This document shows, piece after piece, positions 4,627 through 53,925 of a stretch of 54,997 bases of DNA. Within the stretch, counting starts at the first letter, position 1. Every line of letters begins with the position of its first letter. The position numbers and the translations under genes are program-made. Under the pieces are notes generated by a model, which searched no databases, was not told the DNA's origin, and worked only from the letters and a program-made list of their open reading frames with translations. Origin of the DNA: Deltaproteobacteria bacterium (GTDB taxonomy: Bacteria > Myxococcota_A > Polyangia > Haliangiales > Haliangiaceae); the NCBI GenBank assembly GCA_013813765.1, contig JACCRC010000096.1, positions 1 to 54,997 on the forward strand, read 5' to 3'.

Positions 4627-5307
4627 CTACTGACAAACGGTGGCGTTGAGGGCCATCGTGTCGAAGTAGAAGGCGGTCGCGGCCGTGAAGTCGTTGCTAC
4701 TCGTCATCCGTAGCCGGACGGTGGTGCCCTTCACGTTCGCCGTGATCGTCTTGTTGATCGCGGTCCACGTCGTCGTCGGTGCAGCGTTCGTAAACGCCTG
4801 GATCGGCTCGATCACCGTCCCAGCCGTCGACACGAGGTCGAGGCTACCGCGGTCGTAGACGCTCGCGCCGGTCTCCCCGGTGCGCACCTCGTAGAACCCC
4901 GTCAGGACAATGTTCATTGCCGAAGCGGGGATGGCGATGTCCTGGTGCAGTCCGTCCGTCGCATTGGCCCCGATGGTCCCGACGACCCCGCCGAGCCACG
5001 CCTTCGTGGTCGGGCTCTGGCCGGCGATACCGTCGGTGCGGACGATCGGCTCGTTCATGTACCGGGTCTCGGTCCAGCCGGTCGCGAGAGGCGTGGTCTC
5101 GAAGGCCGGGTTCGCCAGCAGATTCACCATCATCATCGTGCACCCGGCGGGCGGCGAATCGACCGCGGCGTCGGTGCCCGTGGAGGTCGGTGAGTCGACC
5201 GCGGCGTCGGGGTTGCCGGTCACGGGCGCGTCGGGTCTCTCCAGGGAGACCCCGGCCTCGGCACACGCTGACAGCATGGCGAGCGCCAAGATCCTCCGGT
5301 ACTGCAT
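4627..5307 (-). CDS. Lipoprotein with carbohydrate-binding-module-like jelly roll
   Basis: The 226-residue product carries a good lipobox (LAMLSACAEA, Cys about residue 15) and an Asp/Thr/Ser-rich linker. A domain beginning NLLANPAFETTPLATGW and ending DFTAATAFYFDTM follows. That opening and the FYFD ending are typical of the CBM/discoidin-like jelly rolls found in myxobacterial surface proteins. No enzymatic domain is present. Sugar or polymer binding at the cell surface is an inference from the fold pattern. It lies 320 bases downstream of the convergent promoter-less side of the nucleotidyltransferase gene at 5414. Confidence 0.65.
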   Translation of the reverse strand: MQYRRILALAMLSACAEAGVSLERPDAPVTGNPDAAVDSPTSTGTDAAVDSPPAGCTMMMVNLLANPAFETTPLATGWTETRYMNEPIVRTDGIAGQSPTTKAWLGGVVGTIGANATDGLHQDIAIPASAMNIVLTGFYEVRTGETGASVYDRGSLDLVSTAGTVIEPIQAFTNAAPTTTWTAINKTITANVKGTTVRLRMTSSNDFTAATAFYFDTMALNATVCQ

Positions 5308-51286: not shown

Positions 51287-52045
51287 ATGCGTCCGCTCAT
51301 CACAGCCGTGCTCCTCTTCTGTCCCGCGTCGGTGCTCGCAGGTGGTCGTGGCGGTGGCCATCACGGAGGAGGTGGGGCGCTGGGCAAGGTCAGCTCGGGA
51401 CTCGGAAGCGCCTCGCGCGGTGGCGGCGGTTCGTCGTCGACGGAGTCGAGAGAGGAGCGACGACGCGAGCCGGTCTACGTCGACGCTCCGGTCCCGATCC
51501 ACGCGAACGGCGGCGTCATCATTCGCCGACGACAGAAGCCGCTGTTGCCTCCACCGCCGGCACACATCGAGGGCTACGTGGGCGCATCGAAGGTCCACGA
51601 CTCCGACGGCTCGCTGTCGGCGGAGCTCGGCGTCGTCGATGACTGGTTCCGCGTCGATGGCTCGTACACGCGCTACTACGAGGCGCAGCCCGGCATGAAC
51701 ACGCTGACGCTGTCGATGCCGAAGATCACCGGCGGCGTGCGGCTCTACGACGGGCCAGGCTCGAAGATCTACATCACCGCCGGGCTCGTCGGTGCGAAGA
51801 CGAAGCACGATCAGGTGATGGACAGCTCGTTCGTCGGAGTCACCGGCGGTGTTCGTGTCGTGGTGCCCTCCAGCGATCTCGCGGCGCTCGTCGGCACCGC
51901 GGAGGTCATGCTGTTCGAGGACAACGTCACCGCGACCTCGCTGCGCGCGGGCGTTCGCATCGGACCACTCGAAGCGACGCTGCGCCTTCTCGACTTCAAC
52001 GTCGGCCCACCACTGTGGGGACCGGAGCTCGGTCTTCGGTTCTGA
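51287..52045 (+). CDS. Secreted Gly-rich protein with barrel-like C-terminus
   Basis: The 252-residue protein begins at the ATG at 51287 with a signal peptide (PLITAVLLFCPASVLAGG). A Gly/His/Ser-rich stretch (GGRGGGHHGGGGALGK) and a basic segment follow. Residues about 95-252 form repeated strands (IEGYVGASKVHD, VRLYDGPGSKIYITAGLVG, LRAGVRIGPLEATLRLLDFN) ending ELGLRF, a barrel terminus. No named function. It is the last gene before the RNA locus at 52.06 kb. Confidence 0.6.
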   Translation: MRPLITAVLLFCPASVLAGGRGGGHHGGGGALGKVSSGLGSASRGGGGSSSTESREERRREPVYVDAPVPIHANGGVIIRRRQKPLLPPPPAHIEGYVGASKVHDSDGSLSAELGVVDDWFRVDGSYTRYYEAQPGMNTLTLSMPKITGGVRLYDGPGSKIYITAGLVGAKTKHDQVMDSSFVGVTGGVRVVVPSSDLAALVGTAEVMLFEDNVTATSLRAGVRIGPLEATLRLLDFNVGPPLWGPELGLRF

Positions 52046-52063
52046 GCAGTTACGAAAAAGTGT

Positions 52064-52091
52064 TTGACGCGCGCGGCGAGATGCCTTAGTT
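52064..52091 (+). promoter_or_regulatory. Stable-RNA-type promoter
   Basis: The sequence AAAAAGTGTTTGACG contains a -35 box TTGACG at 52064-52069. Sixteen bases on, TTAGTT at 52086-52091 can serve as the -10 box. An A-tract just upstream and a GC-rich discriminator (TGTGTGCGCC) are typical of rRNA and tRNA promoters. No protein starts nearby, so it should transcribe the RNA that follows from about 52098. Confidence 0.6.
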
Positions 52092-52109
52092 GTGTGCGCC
52101 TCGTCGGGG

Positions 52110-52353
52110 CGTTTTCATGCGCCCAGGCCAAACCGGCTGCGGTTCGCACGCTCGGTCGACCAGGCAAGGTCGTCACGCGGGCGTGTTCGGAAGGCTTGCT
52201 CCGCCTTCACAACGCAGTTCCGGGGGCAAGTGAGTCCTGACGAGACCGGGGTATCAAGGTTCGACTCCTTGCTGCTGCACCTTTCCTTATGCAGCGGTGG
52301 CGGAATGGTAAACGCACTGGGCTTGCTCAGCCCGGGTTGCCCCACGTTTTCAT
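52110..52353 (+). repeat. CGTTTTCAT direct repeat bracketing the tRNA-like RNA
   Basis: CGTTTTCAT occurs at 52110-52118 and again at 52345-52353, on either side of the permuted tRNA-like sequence. A nine-base match could be chance. It could also mark an insertion or recombination core, or two similar loops in the RNA. Confidence 0.35.
52244..52323 (+). tRNA. Circularly permuted tRNA-like gene (3' half before 5' half)
   Basis: Upstream part: variable loop GGTAT, T-stem CAAGG (52255-52259), T-loop TTCGACT, CCTTG, acceptor 3' strand CTGCTGC (52272-52278), and discriminator A. Then 11 linker bases. Downstream part: acceptor 5' strand GCAGCGG (52291-52297), T8, D-stem GCG/CGC with D-loop containing A14, G18, G19 and A21, then CTGGGCT, which fits 27-31 with C32 and U33. 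The acceptor strands form 7 bp with one G-U. A15 and U48 can make the Levitt pair. The normal order of halves is reversed, as in permuted tRNA genes. The anticodon cannot be assigned with certainty. Confidence 0.6.
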
Positions 52354-52438
52354 AACTTAGCGGCCCACCGATTCGCATTGGCTCGACGTTCGTCGTCGGA
52401 GAAGTCGGATCCGTCCACAGCGAGTCTCAGCGGGATCG

Positions 52439-52502
52439 TTGACTAGGCGATTGACTAGAAGCCGCTCGTTGTTGACTAGACGCGGGGATTTGTGTTGACT
52501 AG
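52439..52502 (+). repeat. Four TTGACTAG iterons before the integrase gene
   Basis: TTGACTAG occurs at 52439-52446, 52451-52458, 52472-52479 and 52495-52502. The starts are 12, 21 and 23 bases apart. Identical eight-base words in one orientation just before an integrase start suggest arm-type binding sites for the recombinase, or sites for its regulator. Confidence 0.7.
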
Positions 52503-52504
52503 AC

Positions 52505-52520
52505 ACATGAAAATTCATGT
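52505..52520. promoter_or_regulatory. Inverted repeat over the integrase start codon
   Basis: ACATGAA-AA-TTCATGT is a perfect 7-bp inverted repeat with a two-base centre, and includes the ATG at 52507. A protein bound here would block translation or transcription start. Hairpin formation in the mRNA could also hide the start codon. Confidence 0.5.
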
Positions 52521-53925
52521 CAGCGACGAGACGCTGCGGGCGCTCAGGGCGCCCGAGGACAAGCCGCAACTCATCGCGTTCGACACAAAGCTCACCGGGT
52601 TCGGCGTCGTCGTCGGTCAGCGTACCACCACGTTCATCATCAACCGCCGCATCGAGGGAAAGCTCTGCCGCGAGGCGCTTGGAGGATGGAAGGGGCGCGG
52701 TGGGGAGTTGGATGCACGCAGCGCTCGCAAGGAGGCGCTCATCCGCCTCGGAAAGATCGAGAACAAGGAAAGCACGCCGGGCGCCGCGAAACGTGCCAGC
52801 CGCAGCGGTCCGACGCTCGCCGAGGCGTGCGCTCTGTACATGGACTGGATGCGCAAGGACGGCTGCCGCCCGTCGGCCATCGCGACGGTCGAGCGCGAGA
52901 TCAGCGAGCGCGGTCGCTACCTCAAGGCATGGGTCACCCGGCCGCTTACCGCGATCACCGGCAAGGACTGCCGGGCACGTCACGAGGCGATCACGAGCGA
53001 CCACGGTCCTCATGTTGCGAATCGCGTGATGCGAGAGCTGCGAGCCGTATGGAACTACATTGCGAAGGAGGCGAGCGCAGGGATGATCGATGGCGTTGCC
53101 GCTGGAACCGTGTTCCCGGGGAATCCCACGATCGCCGTCTTGTGGAACAAGGAGAACGGAACGACCGCGTACGTAGAGCGACGGCGCGAGCCAGTTCCGT
53201 GGAGTCGCCTCCCCACGTGGCGCGGAGAGGTGATGAGTCTGGAGAACCCCGTGCGACGCGACTACAACCTGATCGCACTGCTGACGGGACTCCGGCGCAA
53301 CGACGCTGCGACGATGCGATGGGAACACGCCAACCTCACCGACGACCCGATGCAAACGCGTGTGTGGAACACCAGCAAACAGGCGTGGGAGGAAATCGAA
53401 CTTGCGCCGCGCATCTTGCTGCGCCCATCGCCGAAGGGGGGAGCGAAGCGGTCGTTTTCGACTCCGCTGTCGAGCGAAATGGTCAAGATCCTCAAGCGAA
53501 GGCAAGCGGACAACGCGAGCCTGTTCGACGATGACAAGGGCTGGATCTTCCCGGTGCGCGCACTCAAGGACGATGCGACGAGGAAGCATCGCTGTTACCT
53601 GTGCCGCGACCTCGGACTGCCGGAGCACGTCAAGGGCACGCTCACGCACATCGCCGAGCCGAAGGGTCATTTCAAGCACCTCGTCGCTCCCCACCGACTG
53701 CGCGACACCTATACGAGCGCACTCGCCGAGATCAACGATCCGCCGCTCTCGCCGTACGTGATCGACGTACTGACCAACCATCGTCCACCCCGGGGCTCGG
53801 TCACGGCAGGCTACATCGATCTCTCGACCGATCATCTGGCCGACTGTCAGGAGCGCGTTACGCAGTTCCTCATGGCCAAGATGAAGCCGGCGCCGGACAA
53901 GCGGCGCTTCAAGGCGGTCGCGTAG
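52507..53925 (+). CDS. Tyrosine recombinase (phage-type integrase)
   Basis: The 472-residue protein has an N-terminal arm-binding region (about 1-95, MKIHVSDETL, FDTKLTGFGVVVGQRTTTF). A core-binding domain follows (about 100-210, TLAEACALYMDWMRKDGCRP), then a catalytic domain. Catalytic residues are seen: Arg in LLTGLRRNDAATMRW, HRLRDTY supplying His-x-x-Arg, His in TNHR, and Tyr in GYIDLS near 438. This integrase type usually recombines at tRNA genes. A longer start at 52492 is less likely. A TTGACTAG iteron ends five bases before the ATG. Confidence 0.9.
   Translation: MKIHVSDETLRALRAPEDKPQLIAFDTKLTGFGVVVGQRTTTFIINRRIEGKLCREALGGWKGRGGELDARSARKEALIRLGKIENKESTPGAAKRASRSGPTLAEACALYMDWMRKDGCRPSAIATVEREISERGRYLKAWVTRPLTAITGKDCRARHEAITSDHGPHVANRVMRELRAVWNYIAKEASAGMIDGVAAGTVFPGNPTIAVLWNKENGTTAYVERRREPVPWSRLPTWRGEVMSLENPVRRDYNLIALLTGLRRNDAATMRWEHANLTDDPMQTRVWNTSKQAWEEIELAPRILLRPSPKGGAKRSFSTPLSSEMVKILKRRQADNASLFDDDKGWIFPVRALKDDATRKHRCYLCRDLGLPEHVKGTLTHIAEPKGHFKHLVAPHRLRDTYTSALAEINDPPLSPYVIDVLTNHRPPRGSVTAGYIDLSTDHLADCQERVTQFLMAKMKPAPDKRRFKAVA

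Follow-up and report, generated by a model that had tools for sequence, protein, structure and literature searches.

A circularly permuted tRNA-like domain in a slipin-linked RNA of Kofleriaceae and other Myxococcota, proposed to be a tRNA mimic

Here we describe, in a stretch of bacterial DNA of 54,997 nucleotides (the window), a tRNA-like fold whose parts are circularly permuted. We hold with good confidence that it is a domain of a slipin-linked, YrlA-type non-coding RNA (ncRNA) of Kofleriaceae and other Myxococcota, which we propose to be a tRNA mimic. As judged by sequence comparison, the order of the arms (often including an anticodon arm), the covariation of the stems, the neighbouring slipin gene and the splitting of the RNA gene in the window are all apparent. 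The RNA probably serves the repair of RNA damage rather than decoding. If this is right, what appears to be a bacterial permuted tRNA gene can be a tRNA mimic, and the permuted domain together with the slipin gene makes a recognisable signature, which was missed here by ARAGORN and by Rfam at gathering scores.

Results

A permuted tRNA-like fold in the window

At positions 52255-52315 a T-arm, an acceptor 3′ strand, a 12-nt loop, an acceptor 5′ strand and a D-arm follow one another (Table 1). The first-pass annotation had reported tRNA parts in this reversed order, and its positions proved exact to the base; the seven acceptor pairs with one G-U, the 12-base spacing and the fitting A15/U48 pair that it had listed are likewise all found in the window domain.

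ARAGORN made no call on the whole window, and Rfam gave no match to it at gathering scores. Neither search found the complete ordinary gene that would speak against a permuted fold, and an ordinary tRNA was disfavoured as a candidate for the site. A permissive Rfam scan of positions 51900-52700 returned four matches, all far below gathering scores and none tRNA-like. The site stands above chance: scanning both window strands with the descriptor gave three matches, of which the permuted site was the best with a score of 32, the others scoring 27 and 26, and 20 randomised versions of the window (Markov, order 1) gave 18 matches between them.

For a rotation test, segments were rotated, their variable loops trimmed to 10 nt and ACCA appended before they were submitted to ARAGORN. 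The rotated window segment is called as tRNA-Ser(gct). From a set of 34 segments of the window and its relatives, two could not be rotated and were left out; ARAGORN called 27 of the remaining 32 when rotated and none of them unrotated. Rotation without the appended ACCA still yielded calls for 22 of 26 segments (2 of 28 being left out), and rotated chance matches with ACCA appended yielded none in 182.

Table 1. Coordinates of the RNA gene and of the adjoining element in the window
Feature	Position	Strand	Remarks
Promoter-like TTGACG ... TTAGTT, upstream of the RNA	52064-52092	+	Both boxes recur in aligned relatives; sigma-70-like by eye
5′ domain of the ncRNA	52098-52238	+	Patchy conservation in relatives; start approximate, 5′ end inferred
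GACGAGACCGG, 5′ strand of a possible YrlA-like stem closing the tRNA-like domain	52239-52249	+	RNAalifold
T-arm CAAGG-TTCGACT-CCTTG	52255-52271	+	T-stem CAAGG 52255-52259, T-loop TTCGACT 52260-52266, CCTTG 52267-52271
Acceptor 3′ strand CTGCTGC	52272-52278	+	7 bp with 52291-52297; double changes at 7/7 acceptor pairs (alignment A2)
Loop ACCTTTCCTTAT between the acceptor strands	52279-52290	+	12 nt
Acceptor 5′ strand GCAGCGG	52291-52297	+	7 bp with 52272-52278, including one G-U
T8	52298	+	Single base 3′ of the acceptor 5′ strand
D-arm GCGGAATGGTAAACGC	52300-52315	+	Contains GG; covariation support in A2
22-bp block GTAAACGCACTGGGCTTGCTCA, presumed attachment core	52308-52329	+	Identical to a block on contig C156 of the same genome (G000)
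CTGGGCTTGCTCA, anticodon-arm-like / closing-stem strand	52317-52329	+	CTGGG begins at 52317
Element DNA: GCCCGG completing a hairpin and four TTGACTAG repeats	52330-52506	+	Repeats from 52439, 52451, 52472 and 52495
Integrase, tyrosine-recombinase type	52507-53925	+	GTG at 52492 gives a longer frame

Conservation and covariation of the domain

A 381-base query gave matches in 10 of 56 genomes: the window's own genome, eight genomes of the same family, in which the tRNA-like part is matched, and G013, whose match consists of element repeats only. The eight other same-family genomes share pieces of positions 52213-52333 with 77-93% identity, the shortest piece having 36 bases and the longest 121. 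Scanning genome contigs for GGGCTTGCNCATCCCAACA gave 13 loci, eight of which are the carriers already known; L074, L076, L079, L082 and L085 were rejected as chance matches. Viral contigs gave no match to a strict 47-base pattern.

An alignment of the nine carriers (the window's genome and the eight others), anchored on flanking sequence rather than on pairing, has 62 of its 63 acceptor cells paired. Whole-strand shuffles of the same nine gave a mean of 49.2 and a maximum of 60, none of 2000 reaching 62; the acceptor covariation that the first-pass annotation had proposed to seek in relatives is found. We also built a MAFFT alignment of 28 domains (A2), in which 25 rows were picked by the descriptor, the window row came from the finding itself, and G020 and G285 were placed by eye. 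Here changes on both sides occur at 15 of 16 pairs, and the covariation score is 0.742, against 0.213 for shuffled alignments (0/500) and 0.11-0.18 for slid ones. The overall pairing of 96.4% in A2 is partly built in, because the descriptor that chose 25 of the 28 rows demands pairing. That a bacterium has a tRNA-like fold in circularly permuted form is thus upheld by the order of the parts, by covariation and by the rotation test. The acceptor loop of G005 (L077, about 4684-4900) is enlarged to 159 nt and contains GC-rich, repeat-like sequence, possibly an insertion.

A longer RNA that precedes a slipin gene

The permuted domain belongs to a conserved ncRNA about 0.5 kb in length. In the eight other carriers the conserved RNA runs on through CTGGGCTTGC[AT]CATCCCAACA, an A-rich stretch and then TG[AT]GC; its conservation tails off a few tens of nucleotides short of a start codon. 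RNAalifold, applied to seven relatives, pairs the equivalent of GACGAGACCGG with CTGGGCTTGCTC; the changes are compatible, with no double ones, and covariation support for this closing stem of the tRNA-like domain was not found in these seven. The TGCTCA within CTGGGCTTGCTCA can pair with a downstream TGAGC(A) in seven of the eight relatives and in the genome's own right half; in G005 both strands have changed (TGCACA/TGTGCA) and this downstream pairing is kept, and G022, which is more distant, has GCCA/TGGC as loop and partner. The pairing options of CTGGGCTTGCTCA, upstream (closing stem), local (TGGG/CCCA) and downstream (TGCTCA/TGAGCA), are in part mutually exclusive.

The gene 3′ of the RNA encodes a slipin, a membrane-scaffold protein (SPFH/Band-7): the window genome's own copy matches Pfam Band_7 with an E-value of 8.7e-32, and its G016 orthologue matches a PDB stomatin at E 1e-21. 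In the carriers the slipin match starts about 300-355 nt past the GGGCTTGC motif, on the strand of the RNA. Within the family, the slipin query gave some match in 18 of 30 genomes and an orthologue in 14 (in G025 its first part only, at a contig end), and the nine carriers are all among these 14. The permuted domain lies upstream of 13 of the 14 orthologues, the own copy being split over two contigs; in G016, G018, G020, G022 and G025 it is a diverged version, read by hand, 5′ of the slipin gene.

Class-wide, the slipin query matched 49 of 289 genomes at E<=1e-30. Among the 30 best loci, which include 13 family loci again, the permuted domain is present in 27: in 24 it is found by the descriptor (loop <=40), in L234 (G005) with its loop of 159, and in L223 and L224 with a 5-bp acceptor, by eye. 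The best loci lacking a full domain are L235, which is the own right half, L217, where none was found, and L220, where the D-arm half alone is seen near a contig end. Outside the family, 15 of 17 strong slipin loci have the domain. A further set of 18 regions, of which 17 precede weaker slipins, has it on the slipin strand in eight cases (three of these scoring 29-30 only); it is doubtful in three and absent in six, one region being too short. Control RtcB loci gave one match with a score >=31 and a loop <=40 in 239,248 strand-bases. Slipin relatives were not found in phages at E 1e-10, nor in viral contigs, where none of 24 pattern-matching stretches encodes one.

An integrating element and a split gene

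From the sequences on either side, the RNA gene appears to be cut in two here by an integrating element, at its anticodon-arm-like strand beside the integrase gene. On contig C156, GTAAACGCACTGGGCTTGCTCA is followed by the missing 3′ part of the RNA and by the slipin gene; the DNA 5′ of GTAAACGCACTGGGCTTGCTCA is different there, and its 412 bases towards the element contain two TTGACTAG repeats like the four beside the window's integrase. The integrase frame from 52492 matches Pfam Phage_integrase at E 1.9e-5 and 25.0 bits, below the cut-off of 27.1, and its product, aligned with the integrase of L039 (G013) over 479 columns, shows 61% identity; that integrase of G013 is encoded near a tRNA 3′ fragment with the anticodon arm CGGCTTTGCAAGCCG. 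The locus suggests, as the simplest reading, that a tRNA-targeting element took the anticodon-arm-like strand of the mimic as its attachment site.

The window's genome is a draft of 562 contigs, 88% complete, so the link between contigs C392 and C156 rests on the 22-bp block and the TTGACTAG repeats, and a mixed population is possible. Searched with R1, this draft genome gave the window as its best hit (71.6 bits) and no intact copy of the RNA; the next hit, at 43.1 bits, is in the range of tandem tRNAs. The integrase-bearing element at the tRNA mimic and the related integrase of G013 were seen at 52308-53925 of the window and in L042 and L039.

Enteric and normal-order versions in an RNA-repair setting

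In Citrobacter the slipin gene adjoins rtcR and precedes the gene for RlaP, the Pfam 'RNA repair pathway DNA polymerase beta family', and a stretch with slipin and RlaP is present in 1,624 of 5,426 complete E. coli genomes. In the RNA-bearing genomes of the family, RtcB and RlaP are encoded on other contigs than the RNA and slipin. Upstream in both E. coli and Citrobacter lies an element TGGCACG-N4-T[CG]GCAA, which we take to resemble a sigma-54 promoter. Such an element would fit control of the enteric locus by RtcR, a protein described as responding to damaged tRNAs (PMC7790460).

E. coli and Citrobacter likely have a minimal permuted version of the RNA before slipin-RlaP, placed by eye. It consists of a T-arm and an acceptor and has no D-stem; it includes ATTCATT-CCTGA-AATGAAT in E. 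coli and TTTCAT-CCCCGA-ATGAAA in Citrobacter, with one compensated pair. Of four E. coli sequence variants, L267 shows a mismatch in the T-stem. Neither the descriptor nor Rfam found this enteric RNA; with R1, E. coli scores 16.1 bits at E 6e-4, and in Citrobacter the T-arm alone is matched. With a likely minimal version in so many complete E. coli genomes, the question becomes testable in a laboratory species. The arrangement of permuted T-arm and acceptor before slipin-RlaP was seen by eye at L260, L261, L265-L268 and L271.

Slipin-linked RNAs in normal tRNA order were recognised by eye in three of four Burkholderia records and in one Photobacterium record, and are called by ARAGORN in part only; in the fourth Burkholderia record no T-loop was seen. 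If these placements are right, both orders, normal and permuted, exist before slipin genes. The normal-order RNAs lie before slipin at L262, L264, L269 and L270, and those of Burkholderia have GAAA or AAA where the anticodon loop would be.

Tandem arrays of permuted domains in relatives

Arrays of permuted domains occur at L293 (1523-2452, +), L294 (2192-1604, -), L296 (2122-1623, -) and L295 (2099-1468, -). There are six copies in G003 and four each in G014 (three of them GCAA-sealed), G008 and G018, those of G018 having loops of 4-8 nt and lying among ordinary tRNAs. In G003 and G014 the anticodon loops vary from copy to copy, and the motif GGCTTG[CT]TCAC, which is much like GGCTTGCTCA of the window RNA, follows five of the six G003 units. 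The arrays of G003, G014 and G008 directly precede the gene of a protein that is 78-81% identical between them. Its vWA match reaches 27.8 bits in G014 (cut-off 27) and 24.5 in G003, just below the cut-off. In sequence comparisons this array-side protein matched no PDB chain and none of the longest frames taken from seven TROVE loci, and its AlphaFold model is poor (mean pLDDT 46).

Discussion

We infer that the best-supported mode of action is that of a tRNA mimic working with slipin, as a scaffold or decoy in RNA repair. The acceptor end would stay closed by its loop, and we propose that the RNA, closed in this way, is not chargeable and therefore works as a mimic. It could then bind proteins that recognise the tRNA elbow, such as tRNA-modifying or tRNA-cutting enzymes, and might tie these elbow-binding proteins to the slipin oligomer, serving as scaffold or decoy in an RNA-repair response; both the binding of slipin and the role as bait are presumed here. 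A wider proposal, which we advance as speculation and think rather unlikely, is that bacteria make batteries of sealed, non-chargeable permuted tRNA look-alikes with differing anticodons as baits for tRNA-cutting enzymes, the bait being sensed or sequestered by slipin (by the vWA protein in the case of the arrays), and the window RNA being the slipin-linked, pseudoknotted form.

The permuted tRNA gene that the first-pass annotation had put forward survives as a permuted fold but not as a working tRNA, against which stand the 3-6 nt loops, the varying anticodon, the longer slipin-linked RNA and the YrlA matches described below. A genuine permuted tRNA, whose loop would be excised by RNase P and 3′ processing to give a two-piece tRNA nicked in its variable region, charged and active in decoding, is improbable in our estimate. 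It would account for the rotated segments that pass as tRNAs, for the 7-nt anticodon loops of several relatives, and for acceptor loops that begin ACCA in G018, G178, G240 and G279, longer loops often beginning AC or ACC; these loop starts and 7-nt anticodon loops leave some room for an origin from real tRNAs, or for two-piece processing, in some lineages. In 11 of 27 aligned relatives, however, the acceptor strands are bridged by 3-6 nt, which leaves little room for a CCA end, as do the GCAA tetraloops of array copies, and the anticodons named by ARAGORN vary by genus (gct in the seven carriers that it calls; other genera give ttg, gca, ttt, caa, gtt, aac, gcc and many more). We give limited credence to the possibility that the RNA is a cis-acting leader of the slipin mRNA, whose tRNA-like domain would detect tRNA-binding enzymes and thereby switch the expression of slipin; it is compatible with our main reading, and a leader role may coexist with that of a mimic. 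The RNA does lie on the slipin strand at a distance of about 300-355 nt from GGGCTTGC to the slipin match in the carriers, and the alternative pairings of CTGGGCTTGCTCA could form such a switch, but similar domains in the array copies are not slipin leaders.

In permuted tmRNAs the tRNA-like part has the same gene order as the window domain, and the first-pass annotation had considered a permuted tmRNA without the usual G3-U70. Such a two-piece tmRNA would agree with the A-rich, pseudoknot-like CTCGTAAA..CGG.AAAAAA downstream in relatives, and carrier G019 does have G3-U70, the pair of alanine acceptors; yet we regard this reading as very unlikely, since the window has A3-U70, none of the remaining seven carriers has G3-U70, a canonical one-piece tmRNA is encoded on contig C319 of the same genome (122 bits), and the Rfam tmRNA models find no match in the window or at the carriers' loci. 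Two adjacent tRNA gene remnants joined by insertion of the element, a version of the two adjacent fragments also suggested at first pass, would suit the integrase that adjoins the site and the related element that sits at a tRNA fragment. We give this hardly any weight because the arrangement, with its covarying acceptor, recurs in many genomes, among them relatives in which the slipin gene still follows. The same exon order would be expected of a permuted group I intron-exon tRNA gene, to which we attach a similarly negligible probability: no match to a group I intron was obtained in the genome of the window at a threshold as loose as E 10.

In algae and archaea, permuted tRNA genes give rise to mature tRNAs by way of endonuclease processing. 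Their 3′ half is described as lying before the 5′ half (PMC3978253, PMC3218864). The domain reported here is like them in having its 3′ half upstream of its 5′ half and a covarying acceptor, and unlike them in that its acceptor appears to be closed and its anticodon varies between genera. Nor does it agree with permuted tmRNA, lacking G3-U70 in the window and having a separate ordinary tmRNA in the genome. Burroughs and Aravind reportedly linked, in 2016, a tRNA-like RNA named b7a-tRNA to an SPFH/Band-7 gene and RNA repair; our RNA type resembles this Band-7-associated RNA in lying directly 5′ of a slipin/Band-7 gene. In a literature search that covered few subscription journals, we recognised no description of a slipin-linked permuted RNA.

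YrlA (RF02553; PDB 6CU1) is like the window RNA in having T-arm, acceptor, short loop, acceptor and D-arm in one chain, and the RF02553 model has the same arm order as the window domain. By ARTEMIS, 6CU1 is described as superposing on tRNAs with circular permutation (PMC11472068). YrlA is reported to be 90-150 nt long, to occur in some bacteria with rsr and rtcA-rtcB, to bind Rsr and PNPase, and to be modified by DusA and TruB (PMC8394870). The RNA reported here differs in its length of roughly 0.5 kb, its place before slipin and its frequent anticodon arm, and the window copy has no YrlA score. Against a gathering score of 69, Rfam YrlA gives 43.2 bits in G025 (full model) and 33.1 bits in G016; none of the 30 family genomes exceeds the gathering score, and the window RNA and the loci of the other carriers have no YrlA match. 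At E<=1, YrlA has matches in 29 of the 30 genomes as well as in 12 of the 14 controls, and R1 matches 30 of 30 genomes at E<=0.001; weak YrlA or R1 matches are unusable alone, because neighbouring ordinary tRNAs imitate the permuted order.

The RNA gene does not lie beside rsr (Ro60, TROVE), unlike that of YrlA in some bacteria, and the genome's own TROVE gene is on contig C70. In all ten RNA-bearing genomes that have TROVE, the gene is on other contigs than the RNA, and its tie to the RNA is weak (10 of 14 genomes with the RNA against 9 of 16 others). Short YrlA-like RNAs, beside which no slipin was recognised, were seen in G022 and G019 (L188 and L189, 1502-1588, +). The TROVE gene of C70 (L297, 2507-8441) sits within an array of 21 ordinary tRNA genes, and TROVE is flanked by tRNAs in several relatives too.
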